DNA of 64,000 bases. It comes from Vogesella indigofera (lineage in GTDB: Bacteria > Pseudomonadota > Gammaproteobacteria > Burkholderiales > Chromobacteriaceae). The stretch is from assembly GCF_003633895.1 (NCBI RefSeq), contig NZ_RBID01000014.1, positions 299,188 to 363,187 of the forward strand, read 5' to 3'. Positions 656 through 63,434 of the stretch are shown piece by piece (within the stretch, counting starts at the first letter, position 1; every line of letters starts with the position of its first letter). Under the pieces are notes generated by a model. That model was given only the letters and a program-made list of their open reading frames with translations. It ran no database searches and had not been told where the DNA came from. The position numbers and the translations under genes are program-made.

Positions 656-2920
656 ATGTCCTCTTGTTGCAAGCACCAGCCCGCCGCCGGCGCGGCCGCA
701 TCCTGCGCCACGCCGGAACACCACGGCCATGACCACAGCGGCCACGATCATGCCGCCCACACCGAGACCCCGCCGCCGGCCAACACCGCCGGCGAGCGTC
801 TGCAGCTGGCGATTCCGGCGATGGATTGCCCCACCGAGGGCCAGCTGATCGCCAAGGTGCTGCGCCCGCTGGCCGGCGTCAACGACCTGTCCTTCAACTA
901 CATCGAGCGAACGGTGACGCTGCACCACGACGGCGTGGTCGAGACCGAGGTGCTGGTGGCACTGTCGGCGATCGGCATGCCCGCCACGCTGCACGCGAGT
1001 GCCGCCCCCGCCGCCGTCGCCACGCACGGGCAAGCCGGCTGGCAGCTGTGGCTGGCCGGTGCTCTGGCGGCACTGGCCGAGGCGCTGGCCTTCGGTGGCG
1101 CCGGCGATGCCAGCGTGCCGGTGGTGGCCTGCGCCGTGCCGGCGATGCTGCTGGCCGGACGCAGCACCGCGCGCAAGGCCTGGTTCGCGCTGAAGACGGC
1201 GACGCTGAACATCTATTTCCTGATGAGCCTGGCGGTGCTCGGCGCGATGCTGCTCGGGCAGTGGCCGGAGGCGGCGATGGTGCTGTTCCTGTTCGCGCTG
1301 TCGGAAAAGCTGGAGGCAAGGGCGCTGGCGCGCGCCGGCGACGCGGTGAAGGCGCTGATGGCGCTGCGGCCGGAAACCGCCTGGGTTGAGCACGGCGACG
1401 GCTGGCAGGAGGTGGCGGTGGCGGCGGTCAAGGTTGGCCGCATCGTGCGCGTGCGCCCCGGCGAGCGGGTGCCGCTGGACGGCGAGATCAGCGCCGGCCA
1501 CAGCCAGTTCAACGAGGCGCCGATCACCGGCGAGAGCCTGCCGCTGGACAAGGGGCCGGGCGACGCGGTGTACGCCGGCGCCATCAACGGCGGTGCGCTG
1601 GTGCAGCTGCGCGTCACCGCGCCGGCCGACGGCAGCGTGCTGGCGCGCATCATCCGCAGCGTGCGCGAGGCGCAGGCCGGCAAGGCGCCGACGCAGCGTT
1701 TCATCGACCGCTTCGCCGCGCGCTACACGCCGCTGGTGGTGGCACTGGCCGTGCTGCTGGCGGTGGCGCTGCCGATGCTGGGGCTGCTGGGCTGGCAGGC
1801 GGCGCTGTACAAGGCGCTGGTGCTGCTGGTGATCGCCTGCCCCTGCGCGCTGGTGATCGCCACCCCGGTGACGCTGGTGTCGGCACTGGCCGCCGCCGCG
1901 CGCCACGGCATGCTGATCAAGGGCGGCGCCGCGCTGGAAGCCGCCGCGCGCATCCGCACCGTGGCACTGGACAAGACCGGCACCCTCACCAGCGGCACGG
2001 TGGCGGTGACGCATGTCGAGCCGCTGGCCGACGGCCACGACGAGGCGACGGTGCTGGCGCTGGCGGCGGCGCTGGAGCAGCACTCCACCCATCCGCTGGC
2101 GCGCGCGGTGTGCCGGCGTGCGGCTGCGGCCAACGTTGCGCCCGCCACGCTGCACGGCGCGGTGACCGAGCTGCCGGGGCAGGGCATGCTGGGCGGTGCC
2201 GGCGGCCGGCAACTGGCGCTGGGCAATCGCCGGCTGGCGCTGGCGCAGGGCGTGCCAGCGGCGCAACTGGACGCACTGCTGGCGCCGCTGGATGAACAGG
2301 GCGAGGGCTATCTGCTGCTGCTGGCCGATGGTGCGCTGCTGGCGCTGCTGCACGTCAACGACACGCTGCGGCCACAGGCAGAACCCACCATTGCCGCCTT
2401 GCAGGCGCAGGGGCTGCGCGTGCTGATGCTGTCCGGTGACCAGCCGGCGGTGGTACGCCGCGTCGCCGCCGCGCTGCGGCTGGACGAGGCGCACGGCGGC
2501 CTGTTGCCGGACGACAAGCTGCAAAGCTTGGCCGCAGCGCAGCGCGAGGGTGGGGTGGCGATGGTCGGCGATGGCGTCAACGATGCGCCGGCGCTGGCGC
2601 AGGCCGATCTCGGCATCGCGATGGGCGCGGCCGGTTCCGACACCGCGCTGGAGACGGCGCAGGTGGCGCTGATGGACGACCGCCTCGACAAGCTGCCGCT
2701 GCTGTTCGCCCACGCGCGGCGCAGCATGGCGGTGCTGCGCGCCAATATCGTGATCGCGCTGGCGATCAAGCTGCTGTTCTTCGTGCTGGCGCTGGCCGGG
2801 GTCGCCACGCTGTGGATGGCAGTGTTCGCCGATGTCGGCGCCAGCCTGCTGGTGATCGGCAACGGCCTGCGCCTGGCGCGGGCGCGGCTGGGCGACAAAC
2901 ATGGAAAGGAGACAACATGA
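656..2920 (+). CDS. cadA: Zn/Cd/Pb-translocating P1B-type ATPase
   Basis: A 754-residue inner-membrane P-type ATPase that exports soft divalent metals using ATP. The N-terminus holds a Cys pair and a His-rich stretch (HHGHDHSGHDHAAH, about 22-35), then an HMA-like domain with MDCPTE rather than the usual MxCxxC. The membrane metal site CPC is at 395-397, the phosphorylation motif DKTGT starts at D439, and the hinge motif GDGVND starts near 638. CPC without a copper-type N-terminal pair, together with a CadR-type regulator, points to the Zn/Cd/Pb (P1B-2) class rather than copper. Its stop overlaps the next start as ATGA. ZntA is an equivalent family name. The exact metal is not shown by sequence. 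Confidence 0.93.
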   Translation: MSSCCKHQPAAGAAASCATPEHHGHDHSGHDHAAHTETPPPANTAGERLQLAIPAMDCPTEGQLIAKVLRPLAGVNDLSFNYIERTVTLHHDGVVETEVLVALSAIGMPATLHASAAPAAVATHGQAGWQLWLAGALAALAEALAFGGAGDASVPVVACAVPAMLLAGRSTARKAWFALKTATLNIYFLMSLAVLGAMLLGQWPEAAMVLFLFALSEKLEARALARAGDAVKALMALRPETAWVEHGDGWQEVAVAAVKVGRIVRVRPGERVPLDGEISAGHSQFNEAPITGESLPLDKGPGDAVYAGAINGGALVQLRVTAPADGSVLARIIRSVREAQAGKAPTQRFIDRFAARYTPLVVALAVLLAVALPMLGLLGWQAALYKALVLLVIACPCALVIATPVTLVSALAAAARHGMLIKGGAALEAAARIRTVALDKTGTLTSGTVAVTHVEPLADGHDEATVLALAAALEQHSTHPLARAVCRRAAAANVAPATLHGAVTELPGQGMLGGAGGRQLALGNRRLALAQGVPAAQLDALLAPLDEQGEGYLLLLADGALLALLHVNDTLRPQAEPTIAALQAQGLRVLMLSGDQPAVVRRVAAALRLDEAHGGLLPDDKLQSLAAAQREGGVAMVGDGVNDAPALAQADLGIAMGAAGSDTALETAQVALMDDRLDKLPLLFAHARRSMAVLRANIVIALAIKLLFFVLALAGVATLWMAVFADVGASLLVIGNGLRLARARLGDKHGKETT

Positions 2921-3378
2921 TGCGCTGGCTGGAGTGTCGTATCCCGCCGCCACTAGTGGGGCTTGCGTGTGCCGCGCTGATGGCGGCGCTGACGTGGTGG
3001 CGGGGTGGCTGGCCGCCGGCGGCGGCGGTGTCGTGGCCGCTCTGGCTGTTGCTGGTGCTGGCCGTGCTGCTCGACAGCAGCGCGGTGCTGGCTTTCGTGC
3101 GCCAGCACACCACCGTCAATCCGCTGACGCCGCAAAACAGCTCGACGCTGGTGGTCAGCGGTTTCTATCGTGTCAGCCGCAATCCGATGTATCTGGGCAT
3201 GCTGTGCCTGTTGCTGGCCTGGGCGTGGTGGCTGCAGCAGTGGCCGGCGCTGCTGGGGCCGCTGCTGTTCGTGCTGTGGCTGAACCGTTTCCAGATCGCG
3301 CCGGAAGAGCGGGCGCTGGCGGCGCGTTTCGGCGAAGAGTATGCCGCCTATTGCCGTCGCGTCAGGCGCTGGTGCTGA
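2917..3378 (+). CDS. Isoprenylcysteine carboxyl methyltransferase-family membrane protein
   Basis: A 153-residue membrane protein of the ICMT/phospholipid-methyltransferase-like family. It has about four hydrophobic segments, then the conserved C-terminal block GFYRVSRNPMYLGM (about 87-100) and the motif NRFQIAPEERALAARFGEEYAAY, the SAM-binding signature of this family. The start at 2917 overlaps the ATPase stop (ATGA) and has GGAG upstream, so the gene is translationally coupled to the metal pump. Bacterial members are often found beside metal-resistance genes, but their substrate is generally unknown. I infer no specific substrate here. Confidence 0.85.
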   Translation: MMRWLECRIPPPLVGLACAALMAALTWWRGGWPPAAAVSWPLWLLLVLAVLLDSSAVLAFVRQHTTVNPLTPQNSSTLVVSGFYRVSRNPMYLGMLCLLLAWAWWLQQWPALLGPLLFVLWLNRFQIAPEERALAARFGEEYAAYCRRVRRWC

Positions 3379-3937
3379 GCAGCAGCCCGCTGGGCAGTGG
3401 CTCGTCGGCGCGGTAGGCGCGTTGCAGCCGGGCCTGTTGCACACTGCCACTGCTGGCGGATTCGGTGGCCCGCAGTTGCTGTTCGGCCTGCTGCGCCATG
3501 CGGGCGGCCTGCTGTGCGACGGCGAGATCCTGTGCCGAGGGCTGCGCCGGTGCCAGTGCCGCGTTGCGGATGGTACGCGCCTTGTCCAGCGTCTGCTGCG
3601 GGGTGCGGCCGGGGCTGACCTCGATGCTGACTTCGCCAGCGACGGCGTAGCGCTGGCCGTCCGGCCCGGTCTGGTACTGGTAGCTGGCACCGCCGCGCGC
3701 CAGCCCGCCGCTGGCGGCCAGATGCGCCTGCTCGTGGCGGCGGACCTCGTCGTCGCGCTGTTGCAGCCGGCTGAGCTGCTGCTGTTCGGCGCGGCTTAAG
3801 GGCTCGCCGGCGCGGTTGCGGCCAACGTTGGCCGCAACGGTCGCCGCCTGGCGCTGGCAGGCCGGGCACGGGCAACCCGCCGCGTGGCGGGAGAGGCTGC
3901 TTGTCGCGTAAGGGGTGCCGGAGCCGGAGATGTCCAT
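3362..3937 (-). CDS. SprA-related putative metalloprotease-like protein
   Basis: A 191-residue protein with the conserved block of the SprA-related family (RHEQAHLAASGG, then YQYQTGPDGQRYAVAGEVSIEVSP). HEQAH at 68-72 matches an HExxH zinc motif. A CPCPAC cluster lies at 22-27 and the C-terminal part is Gln/Ala-rich. I start it at the ATG at 3937: the longer in-frame ATG at 3994 lies inside the terminator of the upstream ABC gene. The last 17 bases overlap the methyltransferase gene on the other strand. A 22-bp copy of the dispersed palindrome (3816-3837) is read through as coding sequence. Protease activity is a family prediction. Confidence 0.8.
   Translation of the reverse strand: MDISGSGTPYATSSLSRHAAGCPCPACQRQAATVAANVGRNRAGEPLSRAEQQQLSRLQQRDDEVRRHEQAHLAASGGLARGGASYQYQTGPDGQRYAVAGEVSIEVSPGRTPQQTLDKARTIRNAALAPAQPSAQDLAVAQQAARMAQQAEQQLRATESASSGSVQQARLQRAYRADEPLPSGLLLSTSA
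3816..3837. repeat. Palindromic copy of the dispersed GCGGCCAAC repeat, inside a gene
   Basis: A perfect 22-bp palindrome, TTGCGGCCAAC followed by its reverse complement. It is the G-variant (AACGTTG) of the dispersed repeat and is translated within the SprA-like gene as part of VAANVGRN. Confidence 0.85.
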
Positions 3938-3971
3938 GAGCGCTGCCCGCCAGACGGATACCGGCTTGCAG

Positions 3972-5903: not shown

Positions 5904-6386
5904 ATGCTTGAACACACTGTAAACCAGCGCGAACTCACCATGTCGGTGCTGATGACGCCGGACATGGCCAATTTTTCCGGCAACGTGCACGGCGGCGTGC
6001 TGCTGAAACTGCTGGACCAGGTCGCCTACGCCTGCGCCAGCCGCTACGCCGGCTGCTACGTGGTCACGCTGTCGGTCGACCAGGTGCTGTTCAAGCAGCC
6101 GATTCACGTCGGCGAGATGGTGACCTTCCTCGCCAGCGTCAACCACGTTGGCCGCACCTCGATGGAGGTCGGCATCAAGGTGATCGCCGAGGACATCCAG
6201 AAGCGCAGCGTGCGCCACACCAACAGCTGCTACTTCACCATGGTGGCGTTCGACAACGGCAAGGCGATGCCGGTGCCGCCGCTGTCGCTGGACAGCGATA
6301 CCCACAAGAAGCGCTTCCGCGAGGCGGAAATCCGCAAAAAAATGCGCATGGAAGCGGAACAGCACATGCAGGCCGCCGCCGAGTGA
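5904..6386 (+). CDS. Acyl-CoA thioesterase, hotdog fold
   Basis: A 160-residue cytoplasmic hotdog-fold thioesterase that hydrolyses acyl-CoA to free acid and CoA. The block [20 protein letters not shown] (21-40) holds the conserved N27-x-H29-G30-G31 and acidic D38 of the YciA/ACOT group. The C-terminal [18 protein letters not shown] is a basic-acidic helix typical of these proteins. GGAAG precedes the ATG. It diverges from the ABC exporter across about 80 bp and overlaps the following GTG-started acetyltransferase gene. Chain-length preference is unknown. Confidence 0.88.
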
Positions 6387-6987: not shown

Positions 6988-7002
6988 TTGCGGCCAACCT
7001 TG
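6988..7002 (+). repeat. Dispersed repeat, single intergenic copy
   Basis: TTGCGGCCAACCTTG upstream of scpA, just after the MITE-like element. It is an exact match to the core 13-mer. A possible scpA -10 box, TACAAT, lies at 7026-7031. Confidence 0.85.
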
Positions 7003-9443: not shown

Positions 9444-9764
9444 ATGCGCACCTTTTTCCTGTTCGTGCTTACCGCCCTAGCCGAGATCGTCGGCTGCTAT
9501 CTGCCGTGGCTGTGGCTGAAAAAGGGCGCTTCGCCTTGGCTGCTGCTGCCGGCAGCGGCCAGTCTCGCGCTGTTCGCTTGGTTGCTGACGCTGCATCCGG
9601 ACGCGTCGGGACGCATCTATGCCGCCTATGGCGGTGTCTACGTCAGCGTGGCGCTGGCGTGGCTGTGGGCGGTGGATGGCGTGCGGCCAACCTTGTGGGA
9701 TGTGGCCGGGGTCGGGCTGTGTCTGGCCGGCATGGCGGTGATCATGCTGGCGCCGCGCTCGTGA
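9444..9764 (+). CDS. ynfA: YnfA/UPF0060-family small membrane protein
   Basis: A 106-residue inner-membrane protein with four predicted helices. The N-terminal block [19 protein letters not shown], then [18 protein letters not shown] and the final [17 protein letters not shown] are characteristic of YnfA/UPF0060, a small drug-resistance-like family of uncertain function. The start chosen (MRTFF) gives the family's usual length. A copy of the dispersed repeat (9682-9695) is translated here as VRPTL. It lies in the islet that separates scpA from scpB. Confidence 0.9.
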
Positions 9765-9841: not shown

Positions 9842-10465
9842 ATGTCGACCATTACCGACCTTAATTACCTCAAGATCGTGCTGGAAACCGCGCTGTTGAC
9901 GGCGCAGGAGCCGCTCACCGTCGGCCAGCTGAAAAAGCTGTTCACCGAAGACGTCAAGGCGGCGCTGATCAATGACATCCTCGACGAGATCCGGCAGAAC
10001 TGGAAGGGCAGGGGCGTGGAGCTGGTCAAGCTCGCCTCCGGCTGGCGCTTTCGGGCGCGTGCCGAGTTCACCCCTTACCTTGCGCGACTGACGCCGGAAA
10101 AACCGCCGCGTTATTCGCGTGCCGTGATGGAAACACTGGCCATCATTGCCTATAAACAGCCGGTCACCCGCGGGGATATCGAATCCATCCGCGGCGTGTC
10201 GGTGTCGACCAGTGTGATGCAGACCCTGCTGGAGCGGGGCTGGATCGAAGTGATCGGGCATAAAGACGTGCCCGGCCGTCCTGGGCTGTACGCCAGCACC
10301 CACAAGTTTCTCGATGATCTGGGTTTCAATACCCTGCGTGACCTGCCGCCGCTGGCGGAGCTGGGCACGCTGGTGTTGCCGGAGCAGCTTGCGGCCAACG
10401 TGGATGAGGACGGTGAAGTGCCCCTCGCTGATGAGGCGCCCCAAAATACTGAACAGGAATCATGA
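9842..10465 (+). CDS. scpB: Segregation and condensation protein B
   Basis: A 207-residue winged-helix partner of ScpA and SMC. The blocks [46 protein letters not shown] and [18 protein letters not shown] are conserved ScpB motifs. The stop overlaps the rluB start (ATGATG), an arrangement seen in many bacteria. The acidic C-terminus is likely disordered. The sequence TTGCGGCCAACGT, a variant of the dispersed repeat, is inside the gene at 10389-10401. Confidence 0.93.
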
Positions 10466-12535: not shown

Positions 12536-12557
12536 TTGCGGCCAACGTTGGCCGCAA
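12536..12557. repeat. Palindromic intergenic copy of the dispersed repeat
   Basis: A perfect 22-bp palindrome, TTGCGGCCAAC plus its reverse complement, between the converging ends of greB and the marR-family gene. No T-run follows. It could act as a weak bidirectional terminator. Confidence 0.85.
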
Positions 12558-13097: not shown

Positions 13098-14249
13098 ATG
13101 TTTTCAGAGCGCGTCGAACGCCTGTCCGGTTCACTGATCCGCGAGATCCTGGCTGCGGCACAACGCCCGGAAGTGATCTCGTTTGCCGGCGGCCTGCCGG
13201 CCGCGGATTGCCTGCCGGCACTGGATTTCAAGGGCGTACCGCCAGCACTGGCGCAGTACGGCACCAGCGAAGGCGAACCGGAACTGCGCGAGCAGATCAC
13301 CCGTGAAGCGGCCCGTATCGGCCTGCAGTGCGACCCGTCGCAGGTGCTGGTGCTGTCCGGCTCGCAGCAGGCGCTGGACCTCGCCGCCAAGTTGTTCATC
13401 GATCCGGGTACACCGGTCATCACCGAAGGCCCGACCTATCTCGCGGCGCTGCAGGTATTCAAGCTGTTCGGTGCCGACATCACCACCGTGCAGCAGGTTG
13501 ACGGCCAGCTGCCGGCGGCCACGCTGGCTGCGGCACTGGACAGCAGCAAGGCACGCCTTGCCTACCTGATCCCGACCTTCCAGAACCCGTCCGGCGCCTG
13601 TTACAGCGTGGAGACACGTCAGGCGCTGGCCGAGGTGATCGACGCCGCCGGCACCGTGCTGATCGAGGATGACCCGTACCGCGCGCTGTCCTACGATGGC
13701 GACGCGCCGGCGCCCATGGTGACGCACCTGAAGTCGGCGTCGTGGATCTACTGCGGCTCCTTCTCCAAGACGCTGGCACCGGGCCTGCGCATCGGCTACC
13801 TGATCGCCTCGCCGGACCTGATGCCCTACCTGCTGAAGCTGAAGCAGGCGGTGGATCTGCACTCCAATCGTCTCGGCCAGTGGTTCATCAGCGAATGGCT
13901 GAAAAGCGGCAACTACCCGGCGCACCTGGCCGGGCTGCAGGCCAAGTACAAGGTTGGCCGCGACGCGATGCAGACCGCGCTGGAAAAACACTTTGCCGAT
14001 TTGGCCGACTGGCAGGTACCGCAGGGTGGCCTGTTCTTCTGGCTGAAGCTGAAAACCACGCGCGACACCCGCGAACTGCTGAAGGTGGCGCTGGGCGAGC
14101 ACAACGTGGCGTTCATGCCCGGCGAGCCGTTCTACGCCAACCAGGCTGACGGCATTGGCCGCCTGCGACTGAACTTCAGCCACGCCACGCCGGATCGCAT
14201 CGAGGAAGGCGTTGCCCGACTCGCCAAGCTGATTCGCGACACGCAATAA
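13098..14249 (+). CDS. PLP-dependent class I/II aminotransferase
   Basis: A 383-residue cytoplasmic fold-type I aminotransferase. The pyridoxal-phosphate lysine is K224 within YCGSFSKTLAPGLRIGY. Other conserved features are ISFAGGLPA near the N-terminus, YLIPTFQNPSG (the asparagine contacts PLP) and the arginine-containing GIGRLRLNFSH near the C-terminus. It resembles the LysN / 2-aminoadipate and valine-pyruvate aminotransferase group. AGAGGAGAG gives a good ribosome site. The substrate is not determined. Divergence from a MarR regulator suggests induction by a ligand. A copy of the dispersed repeat at 13949-13961 encodes KVGR. Confidence 0.9.
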   Translation: MFSERVERLSGSLIREILAAAQRPEVISFAGGLPAADCLPALDFKGVPPALAQYGTSEGEPELREQITREAARIGLQCDPSQVLVLSGSQQALDLAAKLFIDPGTPVITEGPTYLAALQVFKLFGADITTVQQVDGQLPAATLAAALDSSKARLAYLIPTFQNPSGACYSVETRQALAEVIDAAGTVLIEDDPYRALSYDGDAPAPMVTHLKSASWIYCGSFSKTLAPGLRIGYLIASPDLMPYLLKLKQAVDLHSNRLGQWFISEWLKSGNYPAHLAGLQAKYKVGRDAMQTALEKHFADLADWQVPQGGLFFWLKLKTTRDTRELLKVALGEHNVAFMPGEPFYANQADGIGRLRLNFSHATPDRIEEGVARLAKLIRDTQ

Positions 14250-14308: not shown

Positions 14309-14309
14309 T

Positions 14310-14324
14310 TTGCGGCCAACCTTT
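14310..14324 (+). repeat. Dispersed repeat, single intergenic copy
   Basis: TTGCGGCCAACCTTT directly downstream of the bidirectional terminator and 13 bp from the cysB stop. It differs from the 13-mer core only in the final base. Confidence 0.75.
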
Positions 14325-16096: not shown

Positions 16097-16111
16097 CAAG
16101 GTTGGCCGCAA
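16097..16111 (-). repeat. Dispersed repeat between cysH and cysI
   Basis: CAAGGTTGGCCGCAA immediately after the cysH stop codon, with a partial inverted half (TGCGGCC) 6 bp downstream. It lies inside a probable operon, so it is unlikely to be a complete terminator. Confidence 0.8.
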
Positions 16112-23502: not shown

Positions 23503-23534
23503 CAACGTTGGCCGCAGCCTTGCGGCCAACCTTT
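23503..23534. repeat. Inverted pair of dispersed repeats between lspA and ispH
   Basis: CAACGTTGGCCGCA (23503-23516) and TTGCGGCCAACCTT (23520-23533) face each other and can form an 11-bp or longer stem. It begins 3 bp after the lspA stop and lies inside the ribF-ileS-lspA-ispH gene string, so it may lower or separate ispH transcription. Confidence 0.85.
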
Positions 23535-26566: not shown

Positions 26567-26587
26567 TTGCGGCCAACGTTGGCCGCA
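26567..26587. repeat. Palindromic intergenic copy of the dispersed repeat
   Basis: TTGCGGCCAACGTTGGCCGC plus a final A: a near-perfect palindrome 9 bp after the htpG stop, upstream of a conventional terminator. Confidence 0.85.
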
Positions 26588-32489: not shown

Positions 32490-34085
<1,596 letters not shown>

Positions 34086-35150: not shown

Positions 35151-35165
35151 TTGCGGCCAACCTTG
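35151..35165 (+). repeat. Dispersed repeat, single intergenic copy
   Basis: TTGCGGCCAACCTTG, an exact core copy 11 bp after the LysR stop in the gap before the convergent diguanylate cyclase gene. Confidence 0.85.
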
Positions 35166-37438: not shown

Positions 37439-38800
<1,362 letters not shown>

Positions 38801-39683: not shown

Positions 39684-39715
39684 CAGGGTTGGCCGCAGTG
39701 CTGCGGCCAACCCTG
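39684..39715. repeat. Perfect inverted repeat pair between pyrG and kdsA
   Basis: CAGGGTTGGCCGCAG (39684-39698) and CTGCGGCCAACCCTG (39701-39715) are perfect reverse complements separated by 2 bp. Both halves carry the same CCTG variant end, as if one was copied from or corrected to the other. It begins 7 bp after the pyrG stop. Confidence 0.9.
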
Positions 39716-42233: not shown

Positions 42234-42248
42234 CAGGGTTGGCCGCAG
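42234..42248 (-). repeat. Dispersed repeat, single intergenic copy
   Basis: CAGGGTTGGCCGCAG, the CCTG-ended variant, 8 bp from the ubiF stop in the convergent gap after rpmG. Confidence 0.75.
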
Positions 42249-43527: not shown

Positions 43528-43542
43528 TTGCGGCCAACCTTG
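43528..43542 (+). repeat. Dispersed repeat, single intergenic copy
   Basis: TTGCGGCCAACCTTG between the LysR gene (43550) and ubiF, 7 bp from the LysR stop. Confidence 0.85.
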
Positions 43543-46507: not shown

Positions 46508-46544
46508 ATTGCGGCCAACCTTGCAGGACAAGGTTGGCCGCAAT
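46508..46544. repeat. Perfect inverted pair of dispersed repeats
   Basis: ATTGCGGCCAACCTTG (46508-46523) and CAAGGTTGGCCGCAAT (46529-46544) are perfect reverse complements around CAGGA. A 16-bp stem without a T-run, 19 bp after the carbonic-anhydrase-like gene. It is the clearest example of the paired form. Confidence 0.92.
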
Positions 46545-48494: not shown

Positions 48495-48509
48495 CTGCGG
48501 CCAACCCTG
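48495..48509 (+). repeat. Dispersed repeat, single intergenic copy (CCTG variant)
   Basis: CTGCGGCCAACCCTG in the 281-bp divergent gap between the ClpP-like and solute-binding-like genes. Confidence 0.75.
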
Positions 48510-49365: not shown

Positions 49366-49401
49366 CCTGCGGCCAACCTTGTATCAAAGGTTGGCCGCAG
49401 G
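49366..49401. repeat. Perfect inverted pair of dispersed repeats
   Basis: CCTGCGGCCAACCTT (49366-49380) and AAGGTTGGCCGCAGG (49387-49401) form a perfect 15-bp stem with a 6-base loop. It starts 4 bp after the solute-binding gene stop and lies before the convergent EAL gene, an ideal bidirectional terminator position. Confidence 0.9.
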
Positions 49402-50200: not shown

Positions 50201-50516
50201 GTAGGGGACTCCTGGAGAAGGGCTGGCCCGGCGGGGCCGGCTGGCGGGGAAACGGCCGCGCGGTGGCGGCGCAGGCGTCACATTATGGCACCGTTTCAAA
50301 CGCCGGTTCCGGATTGCCGCAGCCGGGCCGCATCGTCACCGTGATTGCGCCTGTTCCTTGCCGTCGGCACGCGGCTAGCCGCAGCTCCGCAGCAATGCCT
50401 GTCGCGCAACACGCAGGCGTGCGGCGGGGCGGGGCAGGCAATGGGACAAACAATTGCGGCCAACCTTGGCAACAAGGTTGGCCGCAAGCATGGCTGCCGC
50501 GTCGAATGGGGCGCGG
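50201..50516. other. Gap between the EAL and Ysc84 genes
   Basis: 316 bp without a supportable gene. It holds the paired dispersed repeat at 50454-50487. I cannot place a promoter for the EAL gene with confidence. Confidence 0.5.
50454..50487. repeat. Perfect inverted pair of dispersed repeats
   Basis: TTGCGGCCAACCTTG (50454-50468) and CAAGGTTGGCCGCAA (50473-50487) are perfect reverse complements around GCAA, giving a 15-bp stem 30 bp after the Ysc84 lipoprotein stop. Both arms carry the exact core. Confidence 0.92.
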
Positions 50517-51113: not shown

Positions 51114-51604
51114 GATGTTCTCCTGTTGACTTGCCATTCGGCTCACGGCTGCACGCAATGTGGTGCGCATTGTTGCCGTGGGGCGGCCGGCGCTGCGGGA
51201 ACGGGGGCAAGGTCGGTGCCGCTGGCGGATCAGGCCGGGCAACAGGGTGATGATGGCGTGGGGATGAAAGGTAAACGGCTCTCCATGATGGGTGTGGAAT
51301 GACACCCGCCCGGCCACCCGAGCACGAGCGGCATGACGCGGCATAAGGGAGAAGTGGCTCACGGCTGGCGGCTGGGTGCTGTCGGACGGGTGCATTCCTT
51401 CCGTCGTTATAGGCGATGCTGGCAGCTGCTAGCCTTTTGATTAGGCAAACAATTCATTGCGAGTGCGTTGTTTTGCATTTCATGCCTTATCGCTAAAAAA
51501 GCGCCTGTTCGGGTCTTGGCTGGCGGGTGGTGACGCCCAAAAGCCTTGCGGCCAACCCCGGTGACAAGGTTGGCCGCAAGGGGCTGCTACACGCCGGTGC
51601 CGGC
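51114..51604. other. Intergenic region between the Ysc84 gene and mfd
   Basis: 491 bp without a supportable gene. 51420-51500 is AT-rich and may hold a leftward promoter for the lipoprotein. The paired repeat at 51545-51580 lies at the mfd end. I see nothing else I can name. Confidence 0.45.
51545..51580. repeat. Inverted pair of dispersed repeats after mfd
   Basis: CTTGCGGCCAACC (51545-51557) pairs with GGTTGGCCGCAAG (51568-51580) around 10 bases. The right arm is an exact core, the left is the CCCCG variant. It sits 25 bp downstream of the mfd stop. Confidence 0.88.
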
Positions 51605-54600
51605 TCAGCCCAGCTCTTTCAGCAGCTCCTTCACCCGCACGATGCGCATCGCCACGTCCGGGATGCTGCTTTCCACCCGCAGCTTGTCCTGGCCGGCCAG
51701 CCGGTAGTTACGCTTGGTCTGGATCAGCTGGATGATCTTCATCGGGTCGATGGGCGGGTTCTTGATGAAGGTGAGCTGTAGCGCCACCTCGCTGGCGTCC
51801 AGCTTCTGGATGCCGATCACCTTCGCCGCCAGCCGCAGGCGGTGGCTTTCGATCAGCGTCTTCACGCTTTGCGGCGGCAGGCCGAAGCGGTCGATCAGCT
51901 CTTCGTGGATGGTGTCGATCTCGTCGTCGGCGTCGCAGGTGGCGAGGCGCTTGTAGATGATCAGCCGCTCGTGCACGCCGGGGCAGTACTCGTCCGGCAG
52001 CAGCGCCGGGCTGTGCAGGTTGATTTCGGTGGTGACGCCCAGCGGCGCGTCCAGATCCGGCTCGCGCCCCTTTTTCAGGTCGCGCACCGCCTGTTTCAGC
52101 ATCTCGGTGAACAGGCTGAAACCGACCTCCTGCATCTCGCCGGACTGACCCTCGCCCAGCACCTCGCCGGCACCGCGGATTTCCAGATCGTGCATCGCCA
52201 GATAGAAGCCGGCGCCCAGTTCTTCCGAGGCCTGGATCGCTTCCAGCCGTTTCTGCGCGTCGCGGGTCATGCCGTCGCCGGACAGCAGGTAGGCGTAGGC
52301 CTGGTGGTGGCTGCGGCCAACCCGGCCGCGCAGCTGGTGCAGCTGGGCCAGGCCGAACTTGTCGGCGCGGTTGATGAGAATGGTGTTGGCGTTGGGGATG
52401 TCGATGCCGGTCTCGATGATGGTGGAGCACAGCAGCACGTTGAAGCGCTGCTGCAGGAAATCGCGCATCACCTGCTCCAGCTCGCGCTCGCGCAGCTGGC
52501 CGTGGGCGACGGCGATGCGCGCCTCCGGCACCAGCTCGGCCAGCTTCTCGCGCATGTTTTCGATGGTGTCGACCTCGTTGTGCAGGAAGAACACCTGCCC
52601 GCCGCGCTTGAATTCGCGCAGCATCGCCTCGCGGATGATGCCGTTGCTGATCGGGCTGACGAAGGTTTTCACCGCCAGCCGGCGCGACGGCGCGGTGGTG
52701 ATGGCGGAGAACTCGCGCAGCCCTTCCAGCGCCATCGACAGCGTGCGCGGGATCGGCGTCGCGGTCAGCGTCAGCACGTCGACGTTGGCGCGCAGCCGTT
52801 TCAGCTGCTCCTTCTGCCGCACGCCGAAGCGGTGCTCCTCGTCGATGATCACCAGTCCGAGGTTGTGGAAGCTGACATCCGGCTGCACCAGCTTGTGGGT
52901 GCCGATCACGATGTCGATGCTGCCGGCGGCCAGGCCTTCCATCGCCTGCTTCACCTCTTTCGCACTCTTGAAGCGCGACAGCTCGGCGATGCGCACTGGC
53001 CAGTCGGCAAAGCGGTCGGAGAAGTTCTGGAAGTGCTGTTCGGCCAAGAGCGTGGTCGGCACCAGCACCGCCACCTGCTTGCCGCCCATCACCGCGACGA
53101 AGGCGGCGCGCAGCGCGACTTCGGTCTTGCCGAAGCCGACGTCGCCGCACACCAGCCGGTCCATCGGCCGGCCGCTGGTCATGTCGCCGATCACCGCCTC
53201 GATCGCCGCCGCCTGGTCGACGGTTTCCTCGAAGCCGAAGCCGGCGGCGAAGGCGTCGTAGTCGTGGTGGCTGAGGGCGAAGGCGTGGCCCTCGCGCGCG
53301 GCGCGCTGCGCGTACAGGTTGAGCAGCTCGGCGGCGGTGTCGCGCGCCTTCTCGGCGGCCTTTTTCTTGGCCTTCTCCCACGCCGGGTTGCCCAGCCGGT
53401 GCAGCTGCACGTCGTCGCTGGCGCGGCCGGCGTAGCGGCTGATCAGCTGCAGCTGCGCCACCGGCACGTACAGCGTGGCGCCTTCGGCGTACTCCAGCTG
53501 CATCATCTCGGTCTGGCCGTCGCCGAGGTCGATCGACACCAGCCCCATGTAGCGGCCGATGCCGTGCGCCTCGTGCACCACCGGATCGCCAACCTTGACC
53601 TCGGCCAGGTCACGCAGCATGGCGTCGGAGCTGGCCGCGCTCTTGCGGCGCTTGCCGTGGCTGCGCGCGATGTGCTGGTACAGCTCGGCCTCGGTGACGA
53701 TGGCGATGGCGGCGTGGTGCAGCTCGAAGCCGTTGAACAGCGGCGTGGCGGCCAGCGCCAGCGGCTGCCGGCCGTCGGCAAATTGCTGCCAGTTGTCCAC
53801 CGGCTGCGGCTGGATGCCGTTGTCGCGCAGGAACTGGAACAGCGTCTCGCGGCGGCCGAGGCTCTCGGCGGCGATCAGTACCCGGCCGCCGTAGCGGCGC
53901 AGGAACAGGTCGAGCTTGGCCAGCGGGTTGTCGGCGCGGCGCTCGACACCGAGATCGGGCAGCGGCAGGTAGTCGCCCGGCGGCTCGCCGTCGTTGGCCA
54001 GCTCGATGCGCGGGTACGGCTTCAGCGCCCCCATCAGCTCGTCCGGGCGCAGGAACAGCTCGCCCGGCGGCAGTACCGGCCGTTCCGGATTGCCGCCGGC
54101 CATGTTGTAGCGGCTCTGCGCGTCGCGCCAGAAGCCTTCCGCCTCGGCCAGCACGTCGCCGTGCACGATCACGTTGGCCGCAGTGCCTAGGTAGTCGAAC
54201 AGCGTGGCGCTGTGCTCGAAGAACAGCGGCAGGTAGTACTCGATGCCGGCCGGCCACAGGTTGGCGGAGACATCCTTGTAGATGCGGCTCTTGCTCGGGT
54301 CGCCCTCCATCTTCTCGCGGTAGTGCTGGCGGAAGGCGGTGACGCCGGCCTCGTCGGTGGGGTACTCGCGCGCCGGCAGCAGGCGGATCTCCGGCACCGG
54401 GTACAGCGTGCGCTGGGTGTCCGGGTCGAAGGTCTTCAGGGTGTCGATCTCGTCATCGAACAGGTCGATGCGGTACGGCAGCGTGCTGCCCATCGGGAAC
54501 AGGTCGATCAGGCCGCCGCGCAGCGAAAACTCGCCGGGGGCGACCACTTGCGATACGTGCTGGTAGCCGCCGGTGACCAGGTCGGCGCGCAGCTTGTCCA

Positions 54601-55197: not shown

Positions 55198-58100
55198 GTG
55201 GAGAGACAGACTCGGAACGCCTTGCTGGCGTTCGCCGTTTTCGTGGCCGGCATTTATGCGTGGCCCGCGCAGTTGGCCGCGCCCTTGTTGCCGGCGATGT
55301 TCCTGTCGCACGGGGCGCTGGCGTGGCGTGCCGGCAGTGCCGGCCTGCGCGCCGGGCTGGTCTGGTGTGCGCTGGGCGCCGCCGCCGCGTTTTGGCTGTT
55401 GCCGCCGTTGCCGGCGCTGCTGTGGAGCGCCACGCTGTGCCTGCCGCTGCTGGTGTTGCGCCAGGTGCTGCCGCCGCGCCATTTCCGCCTGTATAGCGCC
55501 TTCGGCATCGAGCGCCTGATGCTGCGCCTGTGTCTGCCGGCGCTGTTGATCGTGCTGCCGCTGGTATTGGCGTCAATGGCGCCGCCGCTGCAGTGGCTGG
55601 GCTGGTTTGCGCTGGCGTGGCTGTCGCTGCTGCTGTTCTGCGGTTTGCTGTTCACGCCGGCGCCGAGCAGCGCGATGCAGTTGCGCACGCTGTGGCTGGG
55701 CGCGCTGATGACCGGCGGCTTTGCGCTGCTGTGGTTGCCGTTTGGCCAGCCGCAGCTGCTGTACAGTCTGATCCTGTTGCTGCCGCTGCTGGTGTTCGCC
55801 GCGCCGCGCTACGGCAGCGTCGGCCAGAGCGGGCTGCTGGCGCTGGGATTGCTGCTGCTGTCGCTGCCCTTGCGCCTGGGCGTGCCGGGCTGGGCCGCGC
55901 TGCACGACACCCAGGCGGCGCTGACCATGGCGCTGTGCGCCGGCCTGCTGTGCGGCGTGGCGGTGATGGGCGATCTCTACCGTCGCCGCGAACGCCTGCT
56001 GCGCGACGTGCGCGCGCAGTTCGAATCCCTGCTCAACCAGAGCACCAGCCTGATGACGCTGAAGGACACCAACGGCCGCTACCTGCTGGTGAACCTCAAC
56101 TTTGCCCGCCTGTTCGGCCTGCCGGCCGAGCACTTCAAGGGCAAGACCTCGCGCGACGTGTTCGACGCCGACGAGGCGGCCCGCATCAACAGTCATGATC
56201 AGCAGGTGATGCACAGCCTGGAGTCGCGCCAGTTCGAGCAGCGCATCAGCAGCGGCGGCAAGCACTACCTGATGCTGTCCAGCGTGTTCCCGCTGTTCGA
56301 CAGCGACGGCCTGCCGGCCGGCGTCGGCAGCATCTCGGTCGACATCAGCCAGCGCGAGGAAGAGGAACGCCAGCGCCACGAGGCGATGGAGAAGTACCGC
56401 GCGGTGGTGGAGCAGTCGCTGATCGGCATCTACATCGTGCAGGGCGACACCCTGGTCTACGTCAATCCCAAGCTGTCCGACCTGGTCGGCTACGCGGCGG
56501 AGGACTTGCTCGGCCGCTCGATCACCTCGGTGCTGGTGGCAGGCGAGGACGAGCGCATCCGCCAGCAGATCCGCCGCCGCATGCGCGAGAACATCCTGGT
56601 GATGCACTACACCACGCGGCTGCTGCACCAGAGCGGCGACATCGTCGATGTCGAGATCCACAGCCGGTTGTTCGACTACCAGGGCAAGAAGGCGATCATC
56701 GGCGTGGTGATGGACATTTCCGAGCGCGTGGCCGCCAGTGCCGAGCTGAGGTTGGCCGCAACGGTATTCGACAACGCCACCGAAGGCATCCTGGTCACCG
56801 ACGGCGACGGCGCGGTGGTGATGGTCAACAAGGCCTTTACCCGCATCACCGGCTTTGCCTCCGACGAGGCCATCGGCCGCACCTCGCGCATGCTGAAAAC
56901 CGCCAACCGCGAGCGCAACAAGCCGCTGATCGACGCCCTCAACCAGCAGGGCTTCTGGAAGGGCGAGATGTTCGACCGCCGCAAGTGCGGCGAGCCGTAC
57001 ACCGCCGAGCTGTCGATCAGCGCGGTGCGTGACGGTCACGGCGCGCTGTCGCACTACGTCGGCGTATTCTCCGACATCACCGGCCGCAAGCAGGCGGAAG
57101 ACCGGCTGCAGTTCCTCGCCAGCCACGACCCGCTGACGCGGCTGCCGAACCGCTCGGCGCTGATCGAGGCGCTGGACAGTGCCATCGCCAGCCCGGACGA
57201 GGCGCTGCCGACCATGGCGCTGATGTTCATCGACCTCGACCGTTTCAAGCTGATCAACGACTCCTTCGGCCATCAGGCCGGCGACGAGGTGCTGCACGAG
57301 ATCGCGGCGCGCCTGCTGCAGGCGGCGGAGCGTTTCGGCATGGTGGCGCGCCTCGGTGGCGACGAATTCACCCTGCTGGTACGCGATTTCGACAACCACG
57401 AGACGCTGGCGCGGATGGCGGAAGAGGTGCTGCACGCGCTGGCGCGGCCGATGCGGGTGGAAAGCCACGAGGTATTCGTCAGCGGCAGCATCGGCATCAG
57501 CGTCTACCCCAACGACGGTGTCGACGCCGTCGCACTGCTGAAGAATGCCGACGCCGCGATGTACCGTGCCAAGGAAGCCGGCAAGAACACCTACCAGTTC
57601 TTCGACGCGCAGATGAACGCGCAGACCTTCGAGCGGCTGCTGATGGAAAGCGGCCTGCGCCAGGCGCTGGAGCGCGGCGAGTTCGAGCTGCACTACCAGC
57701 CACAGGTGGCCGGCGACGATCACCAGTTGCTCGGGGTCGAGGCGCTGATCCGCTGGCGCCATCCGCATCTGGGGCTGGTGTCGCCGGCGCGCTTCATCCC
57801 GCTGGCGGAGGAAACCGGCCTGATCAAGCCGATCGGCGCCTGGGTGCTGCGCGAGGCCTGTCGCCAGATGATGGCGTGGGATGCGCAGGGGCTGGCCATT
57901 CCGCGGCTGGCGGTCAACCTGTCGGCGCGCCAGTTCGAACAGCAGAGCCTGCTGCACGACGTGGCCGAGGTGCTGGCCAACACCGGGCTGGAGCCGGCGC
58001 GGCTGGATCTGGAAATTACCGAGAGCATGCTGATGCAGAATCCGCAGGAAGCGGTGCTGCTGCTGGGCGAGCTGAAGGCGCTGGGGGTGAAGCTGTCGAT

Positions 58101-58425
58101 CGACGACTTCGGCACCGGCTACTCTTCGTTGTCTAACCTGAAGCGCTTCCCGCTGGACTATCTGAAGATCGACCGCTCCTTCATCGAGGGCCTGCCCGGC
58201 GACGAGGACAGTGCCGCCATCACCGAGGCCATCATCGCCATGGCGCGCAAGCTGCACTACACCGTGATCGCCGAAGGCGTGGAGACCGCGGAGCAGGGCG
58301 CCTTCCTGCGCCTCAACGGCTGTGCCATCCTGCAGGGCTACTACTTCAGCAAGCCGCTGCCGGCGGCCAACCTTGCCGGCTGGCTGCTCAAGCACCAGCA
58401 GCGCTGCCAGGCCAGTCTGGCCTGA
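55198..58425 (+). CDS. Membrane PAS-GGDEF-EAL cyclic-di-GMP protein
   Basis: A 1075-residue inner-membrane signalling protein. About eight hydrophobic helices (1-275) form a sensor region, followed by three PAS domains (about 290-390, 400-515, 520-640), then GGDEF at 720-724 in RLGGDEFTLLV and EAL at 848-850 in EALIRWRHP, IDDFGTGYSS, KIDRSF, EGVET. Both catalytic signatures look intact. The I-site position reads RFGM, so product inhibition is probably absent. The GTG at 55198 with AGGGGA just upstream is the preferred start. The net activity, synthesis or breakdown, cannot be told. Confidence 0.9.
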   Translation: MERQTRNALLAFAVFVAGIYAWPAQLAAPLLPAMFLSHGALAWRAGSAGLRAGLVWCALGAAAAFWLLPPLPALLWSATLCLPLLVLRQVLPPRHFRLYSAFGIERLMLRLCLPALLIVLPLVLASMAPPLQWLGWFALAWLSLLLFCGLLFTPAPSSAMQLRTLWLGALMTGGFALLWLPFGQPQLLYSLILLLPLLVFAAPRYGSVGQSGLLALGLLLLSLPLRLGVPGWAALHDTQAALTMALCAGLLCGVAVMGDLYRRRERLLRDVRAQFESLLNQSTSLMTLKDTNGRYLLVNLNFARLFGLPAEHFKGKTSRDVFDADEAARINSHDQQVMHSLESRQFEQRISSGGKHYLMLSSVFPLFDSDGLPAGVGSISVDISQREEEERQRHEAMEKYRAVVEQSLIGIYIVQGDTLVYVNPKLSDLVGYAAEDLLGRSITSVLVAGEDERIRQQIRRRMRENILVMHYTTRLLHQSGDIVDVEIHSRLFDYQGKKAIIGVVMDISERVAASAELRLAATVFDNATEGILVTDGDGAVVMVNKAFTRITGFASDEAIGRTSRMLKTANRERNKPLIDALNQQGFWKGEMFDRRKCGEPYTAELSISAVRDGHGALSHYVGVFSDITGRKQAEDRLQFLASHDPLTRLPNRSALIEALDSAIASPDEALPTMALMFIDLDRFKLINDSFGHQAGDEVLHEIAARLLQAAERFGMVARLGGDEFTLLVRDFDNHETLARMAEEVLHALARPMRVESHEVFVSGSIGISVYPNDGVDAVALLKNADAAMYRAKEAGKNTYQFFDAQMNAQTFERLLMESGLRQALERGEFELHYQPQVAGDDHQLLGVEALIRWRHPHLGLVSPARFIPLAEETGLIKPIGAWVLREACRQMMAWDAQGLAIPRLAVNLSARQFEQQSLLHDVAEVLANTGLEPARLDLEITESMLMQNPQEAVLLLGELKALGVKLSIDDFGTGYSSLSNLKRFPLDYLKIDRSFIEGLPGDEDSAAITEAIIAMARKLHYTVIAEGVETAEQGAFLRLNGCAILQGYYFSKPLPAANLAGWLLKHQQRCQASLA

Positions 58426-59258: not shown

Positions 59259-59297
59259 CAAGGTTGGCCGCAACGTGCAAGCGTTGCGGCCTTTTTA
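59259..59297 (+). terminator. Terminator built on the dispersed repeat, after rlmB
   Basis: The core CAAGGTTGGCCGC (59259-59271) runs into a stem GGCCGCAACG (59266-59275) with CGTTGCGGCC (59282-59291), loop TGCAAG, then TTTTTATT. A repeat copy has been built into a conventional terminator. Confidence 0.85.
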
Positions 59298-59413: not shown

Positions 59414-60925
59414 ATGGAGCGTCGCTTTTTCCTGCAGGCCGGCAGTGTGCTGGCCGGCCTGCCGTTTGTCAGCCGTGGCGCGTGGGCCGACAGCAGCGTG
59501 CCCGATCACGCCGCCGTGGATCACGCCGCCATGGGCCACAGCATGGCACCAGCCGCCACCGCCAGGAGCGGCAGCGGCCCGAGCCTGCCGCGCGGCGAGC
59601 CGTTGCCGGCCTTGCAGCCACTGGCCAACCAGGCCGCCGCTGCCGGGCAGTTTTCCGGCCGCCTGCGCGCCGCACCGGTATCGGTGGGCTTGTGGGGTGA
59701 CCAGCGCCGCACCGCGTTCTGGGCTTACAACGACAGCGTGCCCGGCCCGTTGCTGGAGCTGTGGGAGGGCGATGAAGTCGAGCTTGCCTTCGACAACCGG
59801 CTGCCGCAGCCGACCACCATCCACTGGCATGGCATGCCGGTGCCGCCGGCGCAGGACGGCAATCCGCACGACCCGGTGCCACCCGGCGGCAGCCGCCGTT
59901 ACCGTTTCCGCCTGCCGGACGATTGCGCCGGCAGCTACTGGTATCACCCGCATCCGCACGGCCATACCGCGGAACAGGCGTATCGCGGCCTGGCCGGCGC
60001 GGTCATCATCCGCAGCAAGCGCGATCCGCTGCGCCACCTGCCGGAAAAACACCTGCTGCTGTCCGACCTCAAGCTGGACGACAACGGCCAGATTGCGGCC
60101 AACGACATGGCCGACCTGCACGACGGCCGCGAAGGCCAGTTCCTGCTGATCAACGGCGCGTGGCAGCCGCAGATCGCGCTGGCCCGCGGCGAGCGCCAGC
60201 GCTGGCGCATCTGGAACGCCAGCAGCAGCCGCATCATCAAACTGGCGCTGCCGGCGCACGAACTGCAGCTAGTCGGCAGCGATGGCGGCCTGCTGGCCGC
60301 GCCGCGCGACATCGACAGTCTGCTGTTGTCGCCGGGCGAGCGCGCCGAGGTGGTGGTTACCGGCCGTTTTCACGCCGGCAAGCCGGCCGGCCTCATCAGC
60401 CAGCCCTATGTGCGCGGCAAGCGCATGCACGCGGAACAGACGCAGGACGAGACGCTGGCCAGCGTCGTCGAGCACGGCATGCGGCCAACCCTGGCACTGC
60501 CGGCCACGCTGCGCGACATCGCACCGCTGGGTACGCCCGGCCACCGCCGCCGCATCGTGCTGTCTGAAAACATGGCCGACGCCCGCGCCCCGTTTCTGAT
60601 CAACGGCCGCAGCTACGACATGCACCGCATCGACGGCACCGGCGAGGTTGGCCGCATCGAGGAGTGGGAGGTGGTGGCCGACGCGCACATGGACCATCCC
60701 TTCCACCTGCACGGTACCCAGTTCCAGGTGCTGGCGCGCAGCGTGGACGGCATCTGGGAAGACGAGCCCTTCCTCGCCTGGCGCGACGTGGTCAACGTGC
60801 CGGCCGGCGAGATGGTGCGCTTGCGCTTCGTGCAGGCGCTGCCCGGCCTGCGCATGTATCACTGCCACATCCTGGAGCACGAAGACCAGGGCATGATGGC
60901 GCAAATCGATTTTTTGCCGAGGTAA
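59414..60925 (+). CDS. Multicopper oxidase (CueO/CopA type), Tat-exported
   Basis: A 503-residue periplasmic oxidase that should oxidise Cu(I). The start MERRFFLQAGSVLAGLPFV is a twin-arginine signal (RRFFLQ). Three cupredoxin domains are indicated by HWHG at 137-140, YHPHPHGHTAEQAYRGLAGA, HPFHLHGTQFQVL and the T1 site YHCHILEHEDQGMM, with H483-C484-H485. A His/Met-rich segment follows the signal (DHAAVDHAAMGHSM). AGGAG before ATG 59414 decides the start over 59390. csoR and copZ follow, forming a copper-response operon. Confidence 0.92.
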   Translation: MERRFFLQAGSVLAGLPFVSRGAWADSSVPDHAAVDHAAMGHSMAPAATARSGSGPSLPRGEPLPALQPLANQAAAAGQFSGRLRAAPVSVGLWGDQRRTAFWAYNDSVPGPLLELWEGDEVELAFDNRLPQPTTIHWHGMPVPPAQDGNPHDPVPPGGSRRYRFRLPDDCAGSYWYHPHPHGHTAEQAYRGLAGAVIIRSKRDPLRHLPEKHLLLSDLKLDDNGQIAANDMADLHDGREGQFLLINGAWQPQIALARGERQRWRIWNASSSRIIKLALPAHELQLVGSDGGLLAAPRDIDSLLLSPGERAEVVVTGRFHAGKPAGLISQPYVRGKRMHAEQTQDETLASVVEHGMRPTLALPATLRDIAPLGTPGHRRRIVLSENMADARAPFLINGRSYDMHRIDGTGEVGRIEEWEVVADAHMDHPFHLHGTQFQVLARSVDGIWEDEPFLAWRDVVNVPAGEMVRLRFVQALPGLRMYHCHILEHEDQGMMAQIDFLPR

Positions 60926-62009: not shown

Positions 62010-62309
62010 TTGCAGAACCGAATTGAACTGACCGCTACGGTCGAACGCGAAGACTCGCTGAGATGCACGCCCGCCGGCTTGCCGGTGCTGGAAATGTGGC
62101 TCAGACATCAATCCCGCCAGAGTGCGGCCAACCTTGAACGTGATGTGGTCTGTGAAATACAGGCTGTGCTGCTGGGGGAGGGTGCCAGAAAGATGGCAGG
62201 AAAGATGGCAGGAAATGTGGTGCAGTGCACCGGTTTTCTCAGTCAGCGCAGTTTACGTAATCCCCGGTTGGTTCTGCATATCGAACACGTTGAATTTGTA
62301 AAAGGTTAA
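62010..62309 (+). CDS. priB: Primosomal replication protein PriB
   Basis: A 99-residue OB-fold, single-strand-DNA-binding protein of the replication restart primosome. [32 protein letters not shown] and [28 protein letters not shown] are PriB features. No ATG fits: the TTG at 62010 has AGGTAAC ten bases upstream and gives the family length; a TTG at 61992 lacks a ribosome site. Its location between rpsF and rpsR is standard for Neisseriales and enterics. The repeat core at 62124-62136 is translated here. Confidence 0.92.
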
Positions 62310-62541: not shown

Positions 62542-62562
62542 GACCGGGAAAGGACCGACAAG

Positions 62563-63012: not shown

Positions 63013-63040
63013 GCAAGACAGCACTGCCCGCAACACAGAA

Positions 63041-63364: not shown

Positions 63365-63388
63365 ACCGATACCGTCTGCTGCAGAATG

Positions 63389-63415
63389 GCCCCGCCCGCG
63401 CGGGGCTTTTGTTTT
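63389..63415 (+). terminator. Rho-independent terminator
   Basis: GCCCCGC (63389-63395) pairs with GCGGGGC (63400-63406), followed by TTTTGTTTT. It ends the small membrane-protein transcript; a palindromic repeat copy starts within its T-run. Confidence 0.75.
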
Positions 63416-63434
63416 GCGGCCAACCTTGGCCGCA
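63414..63434. repeat. Palindromic intergenic copy of the dispersed repeat
   Basis: TGCGGCCAA and TTGGCCGCA around CC (63415-63434), including an exact core at 63416-63428. It lies just after the terminator and before a convergent gene. Confidence 0.85.

Follow-up and report, generated by a model that had tools for sequence, protein, structure and literature searches.

The described systems most like the repeat considered here are the DNA uptake sequences (DUS) of the Neisseriaceae and, at a greater distance and without likeness of sequence, the uptake signal sequences (USS) of the Pasteurellaceae. Eight DUS dialects have CTG at positions +6 to +8 and A at +10 in common, and kingDUS and king3DUS differ by A/C at +9 (PMC3630211). 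Pairs of DUS and of USS have been reported as terminators, with a gene-end pattern like that described below for Vogesella (PMC1852404). The Neisseria receptor ComP has four cysteines, the second bond holding the DD region (PMC4906244, PMC12061091), and the way in which ComP reads DNA was called enigmatic in a 2025 modelling paper (PMC12061091); for the USS, another pilin, ComN, is the predicted receptor (PMC12616744). "No obvious DUS" was reported for Laribacter hongkongensis, Lutiella nitroferrum 2002, Pseudogulbenkiania sp. NH8B and two Chromobacterium genomes (PMC3630211). The present analysis concerns a stretch of 64,000 nucleotides from Vogesella indigofera (bases 299,188-363,187 of contig 3; genome of 3.62 Mb in 20 contigs), hereafter termed the window, and a short word dispersed through it. 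The word is very probably the DNA uptake sequence of Vogesella, of the dialect AG-GTTGGCCGCA, as judged from its count, its dispersal without polarity, its inverted pairs, its absence from a mobile island, its origin by point changes and the presence of a ComP-like pilin. A lineage-specific uptake sequence had been suggested in an initial annotation of this DNA, and the suggestion is well supported by these features.

The initial annotation had counted 21 exact copies of a 13-mer, 12 on the plus and 9 on the minus strand, all of which were recovered at the same places and on the same strands (Table 1). The mean over 100 dinucleotide shuffles of the window is 0.02 copies; composition does not explain the word, as had been claimed, and the expectation then given (0.002) was about ten times too low. 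In the whole genome the 13-mer occurs 709 times (344 forward and 365 reverse), as opposed to none for the control word read backwards. Word statistics for the window and for a 464-kb sample (the window and 20 stretches of 20 kb each) define the conserved unit as the 10-mer TGCGGCCAAC, which is GTTGGCCGCA on the opposite strand. This core is present 47 times in the window (20 plus and 27 minus in DUS orientation; about 0.5 expected), 281 times in the sample (6.3 under an order-4 Markov model) and 2,057 times in the genome (9 for the reversed control). The presence of GGCC in the word and the 64% GC of the genome might suggest a compositional or codon-usage artefact, or the remnant of a restriction-site bias. 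Such an origin is refuted by the shuffles, the reversed word, the Markov expectation and the absence of the word from sister genera of similar GC, and we assign it next to no probability.

The full unit is AG-GTTGGCCGCA, composed of a rigid 10-bp core and a softer AG in front. In the 464-kb sample, exact AGGTTGGCCGCA is found 143 times, compared to 0-13 copies for each single change within the ten core letters; most of these changes are represented by 0 or 1 copies, and the most frequent by 9 at +1 and by 9 and 13 at +10. The letters at -1 (G 67%, C 27%) and -2 (A 81%) are softer, with A and C further out. Since the ten core letters are rigid and the flanks are not, the 13-mer corresponds to the core without its last letter, preceded by CAA-G, and just 17 of the 21 copies in the window possess all ten core letters. 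The near-copies mentioned in the initial annotation were also found in the window (10 of GCGGCCAACGTTG and 5 of GCGGCCAACCCTG); three 18-bp palindromes, GCGGCCAACGTTGGCCGC, each consisting of two cores that overlap head to head, account with their arms for six of the ten AACGTTG copies.

Two dialects of the word can be distinguished. The 13-mer is abundant in the four sampled Vogesella genomes (709, 698, 642 and 262 copies), whereas none of the remaining 345 among 349 genomes of the order has more than 3. Likewise, TGCGGCCAAC numbers 1,871-2,895 per genome in all 13 Vogesella and does not exceed 58 in the remaining 48 of the 61 genomes of the family. The sister dialect, AG-GTTGGCCGAA, occurs in Gulbenkiania, Pseudogulbenkiania and further genera of the Chromobacteriaceae. 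Its 10-mer, TTCGGCCAAC, reaches 183-2,168 copies in 8 of the 61 genomes, which represent five genera other than Vogesella: 579 and 2,168 in genus g150, 1,245 in g4, 1,851 in g152, 1,104, 183 and 893 in g153, and 1,368 in G074, the sole carrier among ten genomes of g3, a genus which we take to be Aquitalea. The two genomes of g149 contain 77 and 78 copies and the remaining 51 genomes 8-62 (reversed controls 4-31). In this family count, neither dialect is abundant in Chromobacterium or in nine of the ten Aquitalea genomes, nor was a DUS-like word recovered de novo from Chromobacterium and Aquitalea samples of 20-107 kb. The 12-mer TKCGGCCAACCT does not exceed 7 copies per genome across 194 genomes outside the family.

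The same division is evident in 22 named loci, which were fetched by means of a ComP peptide-pattern scan and used for word counts per genus. Each of the seven loci of Vogesella or Vogesella-like bacteria contains 9-15 copies of GTTGGCCGCA and none of GTTGGCCGAA, and the reverse is true for Pseudogulbenkiania subflava, P. ferrooxidans 2002 and Gulbenkiania mobilis (6, 7 and 10 copies of GTTGGCCGAA, respectively, and no GTTGGCCGCA). The short (7.8 kb) locus of a Pseudogulbenkiania metagenome-assembled genome has neither word. Of the loci from Chromobacterium, Aquitalea and Xenophilus sp. AP218F there are 11; in these, GTTGGCCGAA is absent and a single GTTGGCCGCA occurs in two, both from Aquitalea. 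Whole-genome counts of TKCGGCCAAC, available for 16 of the 22, are 1,944-2,473 in seven Vogesella, 935 in P. subflava, 1,149 in P. ferrooxidans 2002 and 1,265 in G. mobilis, and 40-73 in six Chromobacterium, Aquitalea and AP218F genomes (reversed controls 20-41). As Lutiella nitroferrum 2002 and P. ferrooxidans 2002 are the same organism, the 1,149 copies contradict the published "no obvious DUS" statement for this genome.

The placement of the cores in the 464-kb sample was assessed with our own simple codon-usage gene model (388 genes, 82.5% coding). Neighbouring cores form 35 inverted pairs with starts at most 25 bp apart, of mixed orientation (14 +- and 21 -+), and no direct pairs within 60 bp. 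The 281 cores comprise 142 genic and 69 intergenic singles, together with 64 intergenic and 6 genic paired cores; 47% of the cores thus lie in the 17.5% of the sequence that the model calls intergenic. Of the intergenic paired cores, 44 occupy gaps between tandem genes, 20 convergent gaps and none divergent gaps, in which three single cores were found. A gene 3' end lies no more than 45 bp from the start of the pair in 27 cases and 61-215 bp away in four; for the remaining four, none was present in the range searched. A run of four T residues is located within 22 bp on a side of 12 of the 35 pairs, compared to 13% of random intergenic places, and the median hairpin energy of the pairs is -26.9 kcal/mol. 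These data show that inverted pairs following genes form terminator-like hairpins. The word could accordingly be viewed as an intrinsic terminator, or as a hairpin resembling the repetitive extragenic palindromic (REP) elements, that spreads as a unit and has no role in uptake; this would account for the pairs just past gene ends and for their avoidance of divergent gaps. It would not account for the 211 unpaired cores, two-thirds of which (142) are inside predicted genes, nor for a fixed ten-letter word throughout a genus, which termination does not need. Moreover, a stem would accept compensatory changes, whereas cores with a single altered letter are scarce, and orthologous sites differ by substitution and not by insertion or deletion of the unit (see below). 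We therefore consider an exclusive terminator or hairpin function to be quite improbable. As a separate observation, two inverted pairs of near-identical sequence are situated 389 bp apart near 68.5 kb of contig C2 of V. indigofera (L046 18538 and 18927), suggesting a duplicated stretch that carries its own hairpin.

Chi and KOPS (FtsK-orienting polar sequences) are likewise genus-specific, dispersed, over-represented short words, and the initial annotation had offered an architectural signal as an alternative to uptake. A polarised chromosome-maintenance signal of this kind, or a site for another architectural protein, is unsupported, since polarity is absent: the two strands of the genome carry nearly equal numbers of the 13-mer, and 159 versus 142 sites were counted relative to the local G-rich strand over 524 kb, with local GC skew standing in for a mapped origin. 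In addition, signals of the Chi or KOPS type are not known to be arranged as inverted pairs at gene ends. This alternative appears highly improbable.

The origin of the copies was examined by comparing orthologous sites among nine comP regions of Vogesella or Vogesella-like bacteria. In 403 comparisons of motif sites, 65% are identical, 11% show one difference, 21% more than one and 2.7% a gap, versus 24%, 27%, 44% and 4.6%, respectively, for 3,862 in-phase control 10-mers of the same alignments; the percentages are descriptive and carry no test, because species pairs are not independent. Between genera the sites almost never align (2 of 1,010 comparisons). Differences among species at these sites thus consist of substitutions, not of insertions, and the copies are retained above their surroundings. 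An inserted repeat family of the REP type or resembling miniature inverted-repeat transposable elements was rejected on the basis of the gap frequencies.

A gap of 26 kb (C1:367,352-393,541) is devoid of cores, as opposed to about 16 expected from the density in the sample. This island has a GC content of 0.52-0.60 in 2-kb windows, and the six proteins searched include a DDE transposase, a TniA-like protein (rve and Mu-transpos_C), TniB and TniQ. It also harbors an open frame of 2,563 amino acids on the plus strand (C1:371,632-379,323; L111:11632-19323), coding for a primase-like protein of unusual size, in which a CHC2 primase zinc finger, a Toprim domain and an RVT_1 match below the Pfam cut-off (E 1e-5) were recognised. 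A second core-free stretch of low GC (0.59) is located at C1:512,001-520,000 (L043 from 12,001 to the end).

The initial annotation had proposed a search for a ComP-like pilin, and a candidate was indeed found in the V. indigofera genome. Matches to PF16732 (ComP_DUS) occur in all 11 family genomes that were queried and in none of 14 controls. V. indigofera has two. A PF16732 match alone does not identify a pilin as ComP, and neither protein is named by an NCBIfam model (all were below cut-off, except for a general prepilin signal). The first match, on C5, was rejected as ComP: no ComP structure matched it, unlike the second, on C11, and it precedes genes which by eye resemble fimT, pilW, pilX and pilV. 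The C11 pilin is encoded at C11:94256-94504, and its globular part matches the solved ComPs 2nba (E 8e-10), 2m3k (4e-7) and 5hz7 (2e-6). When the fold of the orthologue from V. alkaliphila was modelled (94% identical; alignment of 21 sequences; mean pLDDT 84.9), its best matches in the Protein Data Bank (PDB) were 5hz7, 2m3k and 2nba, at ranks 1-3 of 196, 5hz7 alone being below E 0.001. As in these ComPs, a C-terminal region lies between two cysteines. V. indigofera encodes a ComP-like minor pilin, which is the putative receptor of the word. ComEC was detected in all 29 genomes queried and likewise in 10 of the 14 control genomes. Chromobacterium and Aquitalea (loci L090-L100), genera without the uptake word, have retained ComP-like pilins.

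How, then, is the word related to DUS? The canonical GCCGTCTGAA is not enriched in the V. indigofera genome (3 copies; control 7). It is present at 247-4,285 copies in six of the eight genomes of family f44, which we infer from this abundance to be the Neisseriaceae, and at 4 and 2 copies in the other two. Among 150 genomes of the order, the pattern GGNNGNCYGMA is at least 3-fold above its reversed control only in V. indigofera (G000) and G117 (3.4-3.7), and in two f44 genomes, G044 (3.2) and G130 (13). An excess of about 2-fold (e.g., 2,570 versus 1,276 in the reversed control), inseparable from composition, was noted in G074, G133 (f49), G111 (f21), G043 (f43) and G142 (f10). When aligned in the DUS register, AGGTTGGCCGCA and AGGTTGGCCGAA agree with simDUS AGGCTGCCTGAA in 8 and 9 of their 12 letters, with AG-DUS in 7 and 8, with king3DUS AAGCAGCCTGCA in 7 and 6 and with AT-DUS in 6 and 7, respectively. 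That the repeat has no relation to GCCGTCTGAA, as stated in the initial annotation, is probably incorrect, once the reverse complement is read in the DUS register and the identity to simDUS and the AG prefix are considered.

Like the DUS dialects, the words of the Chromobacteriaceae extend over 12 bp, with ten rigid letters and two softer ones at the 5' end, and share the AG prefix of most of the dialects compared. The letters in common are G at +1 and +8, C at +6, A at +10 and G at +4 (the latter not in eikDUS), and the only difference between the Vogesella and sister dialects (C versus A, respectively) occupies position +9, where the DUS dialects also have A or C. Both systems show thousands of unpolarised copies, inverted terminator-like pairs and a ComP-like pilin. 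The Chromobacteriaceae words differ in CCG instead of CTG, in T, T and G at positions +2, +3 and +5, and in the host family. Lacking the CTG core, the Vogesella word is not a canonical Neisseriaceae DUS dialect. The USS AAGTGCGGT is similarly short and dispersed and forms terminator pairs (PMC1852404); it is unrelated in sequence and belongs to a distant lineage. We regard the words of the Chromobacteriaceae as a group of dialects that is sister to DUS and of like kind, and those of the two families probably share an origin.

Several observations weigh against an uptake sequence read by ComP and related to DUS. CCG occupies +6 to +8 in the Chromobacteriaceae words; the CTG variants GTTGGCTGAA and GTTGGCTGCA are absent from the 22 loci, and a change of +7 to T was found 0 times, versus 143 exact copies, in the 464-kb sample. 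In the comparison with NEISSERIACEAE DUS, random 12-mers of like GC reach 8 of 12 identities in 4.9% and 9 of 12 in 0.65% of cases, when every register and strand and five dialects are considered. A single orientation prevails among the pairs of Neisseria (226 versus 5; PMC1852404), unlike the mixed Vogesella pairs. The sequence search with the C11 pilin was topped by major pilins through the shared N-terminal helix; the ComP chains do not contain this helix and rank 5th, 11th and 13th of 23. All 21 orthologues have only two globular cysteines, and the second ComP disulfide, the C76-C125 pair of the DD region, is missing. The sequence preceding the first C-terminal cysteine is TQTGI in all seven Vogesella or Vogesella-like loci and DQDGN in the 14 others, in a scan whose peptide pattern covers that very place and allows little else; in an independent PF16732 set, TQTGI was found in three of four Vogesella (STGI in G312) and DQDGN in six of seven others, with NQDGN in the +9A carrier G074. 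The exchange of TQTGI for DQDGN is, moreover, a single event on one branch. The presence of a ComP-like pilin and ComEC does not predict the word, since both also occur in word-free genera. Finally, cores are generally sparser in windows below 60% GC (0.75-0.85 per 4 kb; n=17, six of them inside the 26-kb island) than above (2.1-2.8), so that the lack of cores in the island conforms to a broader tendency; given this tendency and the second empty stretch, the avoidance of mobile DNA is drawn from a single characterised island.

Some of these points would suit a true uptake sequence of independent origin, whose likeness to DUS reflects chance or convergence on related ComPs: identity is just 8-9 of 12 (P about 0.05 and 0.0065), CTG is absent from the core and the pilin has no second disulfide. 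The length, AG prefix, register and variable +9, all as in DUS, and a related candidate receptor speak for common descent. Independent origin, which is a sub-case of the uptake-sequence reading and not an addition to it, is in our view unlikely, if clearly less so than the non-uptake explanations.

If the word is an uptake sequence, ComP on the type IV pilus would bind it on free DNA, the pilus would then retract and ComEC would carry one strand into the cell; recombination would retain word-bearing alleles, and the word would accumulate by biased uptake. A tree of ComEC (29 rows, one gene, midpoint root; 5 of 26 inner forks weak) separates three f44 rows from the family and unites the five Vogesella rows in one clade. 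The +9A dialect is scattered over g4, g153, g150, g152 and the deepest of five g3 rows, and its clustering is barely beyond that of shuffled labels (51 of 500 as low). Its simplest reading, compatible with the tree, would be an ancestral +9A with one switch in Vogesella and several losses. G074 falls outside the other four g3 rows, and the word has perhaps been lost in the rest of that genus. On a fuller scenario, to which we give somewhat less than even credence, uptake-guided transformation would predate the Neisseriaceae and go back to an ancestor shared with the Chromobacteriaceae. One family would then carry CTG and the other CCG, together with a one-disulfide ComP; a later single change at +9 (A to C) in Vogesella would have accompanied that from DQDGN to TQTGI, and the word would have been lost in Chromobacterium, most Aquitalea and two other genera, with the ComP-like pilin kept in at least the first two.

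With the Vogesella word as an uptake sequence, such specificity would extend to a second family, the Chromobacteriaceae, formerly reported as DUS-free in the few genomes examined, and a central letter thought to be fixed is changed in its dialects. If true, a working dialect that has no CTG and whose ComP lacks the DD disulfide would provide natural pairs for the study of ComP-DNA reading, and genera with and without the word, both with ComP-like pilins, would offer a test of the gain and loss of specificity. In the literature searched, from which most subscription journals are outside coverage, GCGGCCAACCTTG is not mentioned, and the letters of GTTGGCCGAA occur, among the matches listed, under titles unrelated to uptake. 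The search linked neither Vogesella with an uptake sequence nor Pseudogulbenkiania with natural competence; for Pseudogulbenkiania and uptake sequences it returned only Frye et al. 2013 (PMC3630211), whose Table S1D, of over-represented 10-mers in the five "no DUS" genomes, may contain the 10-mer unlabelled.

Table 1. Core words and 13-mers in the window. Strands of single cores are in DUS orientation, opposite to those of the initial annotation; for the last four rows the strand is that of the 13-mer in the initial annotation.
Feature	Position	Strand	13-mer copy or remark
Inverted core pair, overlapping palindrome	3817..3836		within predicted gene
Inverted pair, palindrome	12537..12556		intergenic in our gene model
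Inverted pair, hairpin	23507..23530		intergenic
Inverted pair, palindrome	26568..26587		intergenic
Inverted pair, hairpin	31267..31294		intergenic; contains most of 31263
Inverted pair, hairpin	37288..37316		intergenic
Inverted pair, hairpin	39688..39711		intergenic
Inverted pair, hairpin	46510..46542		intergenic; 46511 and 46529
Inverted pair, hairpin	49368..49399		intergenic; 49369
Inverted pair, hairpin	50455..50486		intergenic; 50456 and 50473
Inverted pair, hairpin	51547..51578		intergenic; 51565
Single core GTTGGCCGCA	1433..1442	+	1429
Single core	2125..2134	-	
Single core	6147..6156	+	
Single core	6989..6998	-	6990
Single core	9682..9691	-	9683
Single core	10390..10399	-	
Single core	14311..14320	-	
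Single core	16101..16110	+	16097
Single core	20888..20897	-	
Single core	21773..21782	-	
Single core	25925..25934	+	
Single core	35152..35161	-	35153
Single core	38768..38777	-	38769; imperfect second arm follows
Single core	42238..42247	+	
Single core	43529..43538	-	43530
Single core	48496..48505	-	
Single core	52312..52321	-	
Single core	54173..54182	+	
Single core	56751..56760	+	
Single core	59263..59272	+	59259
Single core	60094..60103	-	
Single core	60480..60489	-	
Single core	60647..60656	+	
Single core	62123..62132	-	62124
Single core	63415..63424	-	63416
13-mer without last core letter (+10)	13949..13961	-	
13-mer without last core letter (+10)	25159..25171	-	
13-mer without last core letter (+10)	33471..33483	+	
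13-mer without last core letter (+10)	58363..58375	+	

A different repeat was encountered in stretches L107-L109 of genome G386, where the palindrome TGCTTAAGCA, unrelated to the uptake word, occurs at 5 places in 60 kb (10 counting both strands, for which 0.2 are expected).

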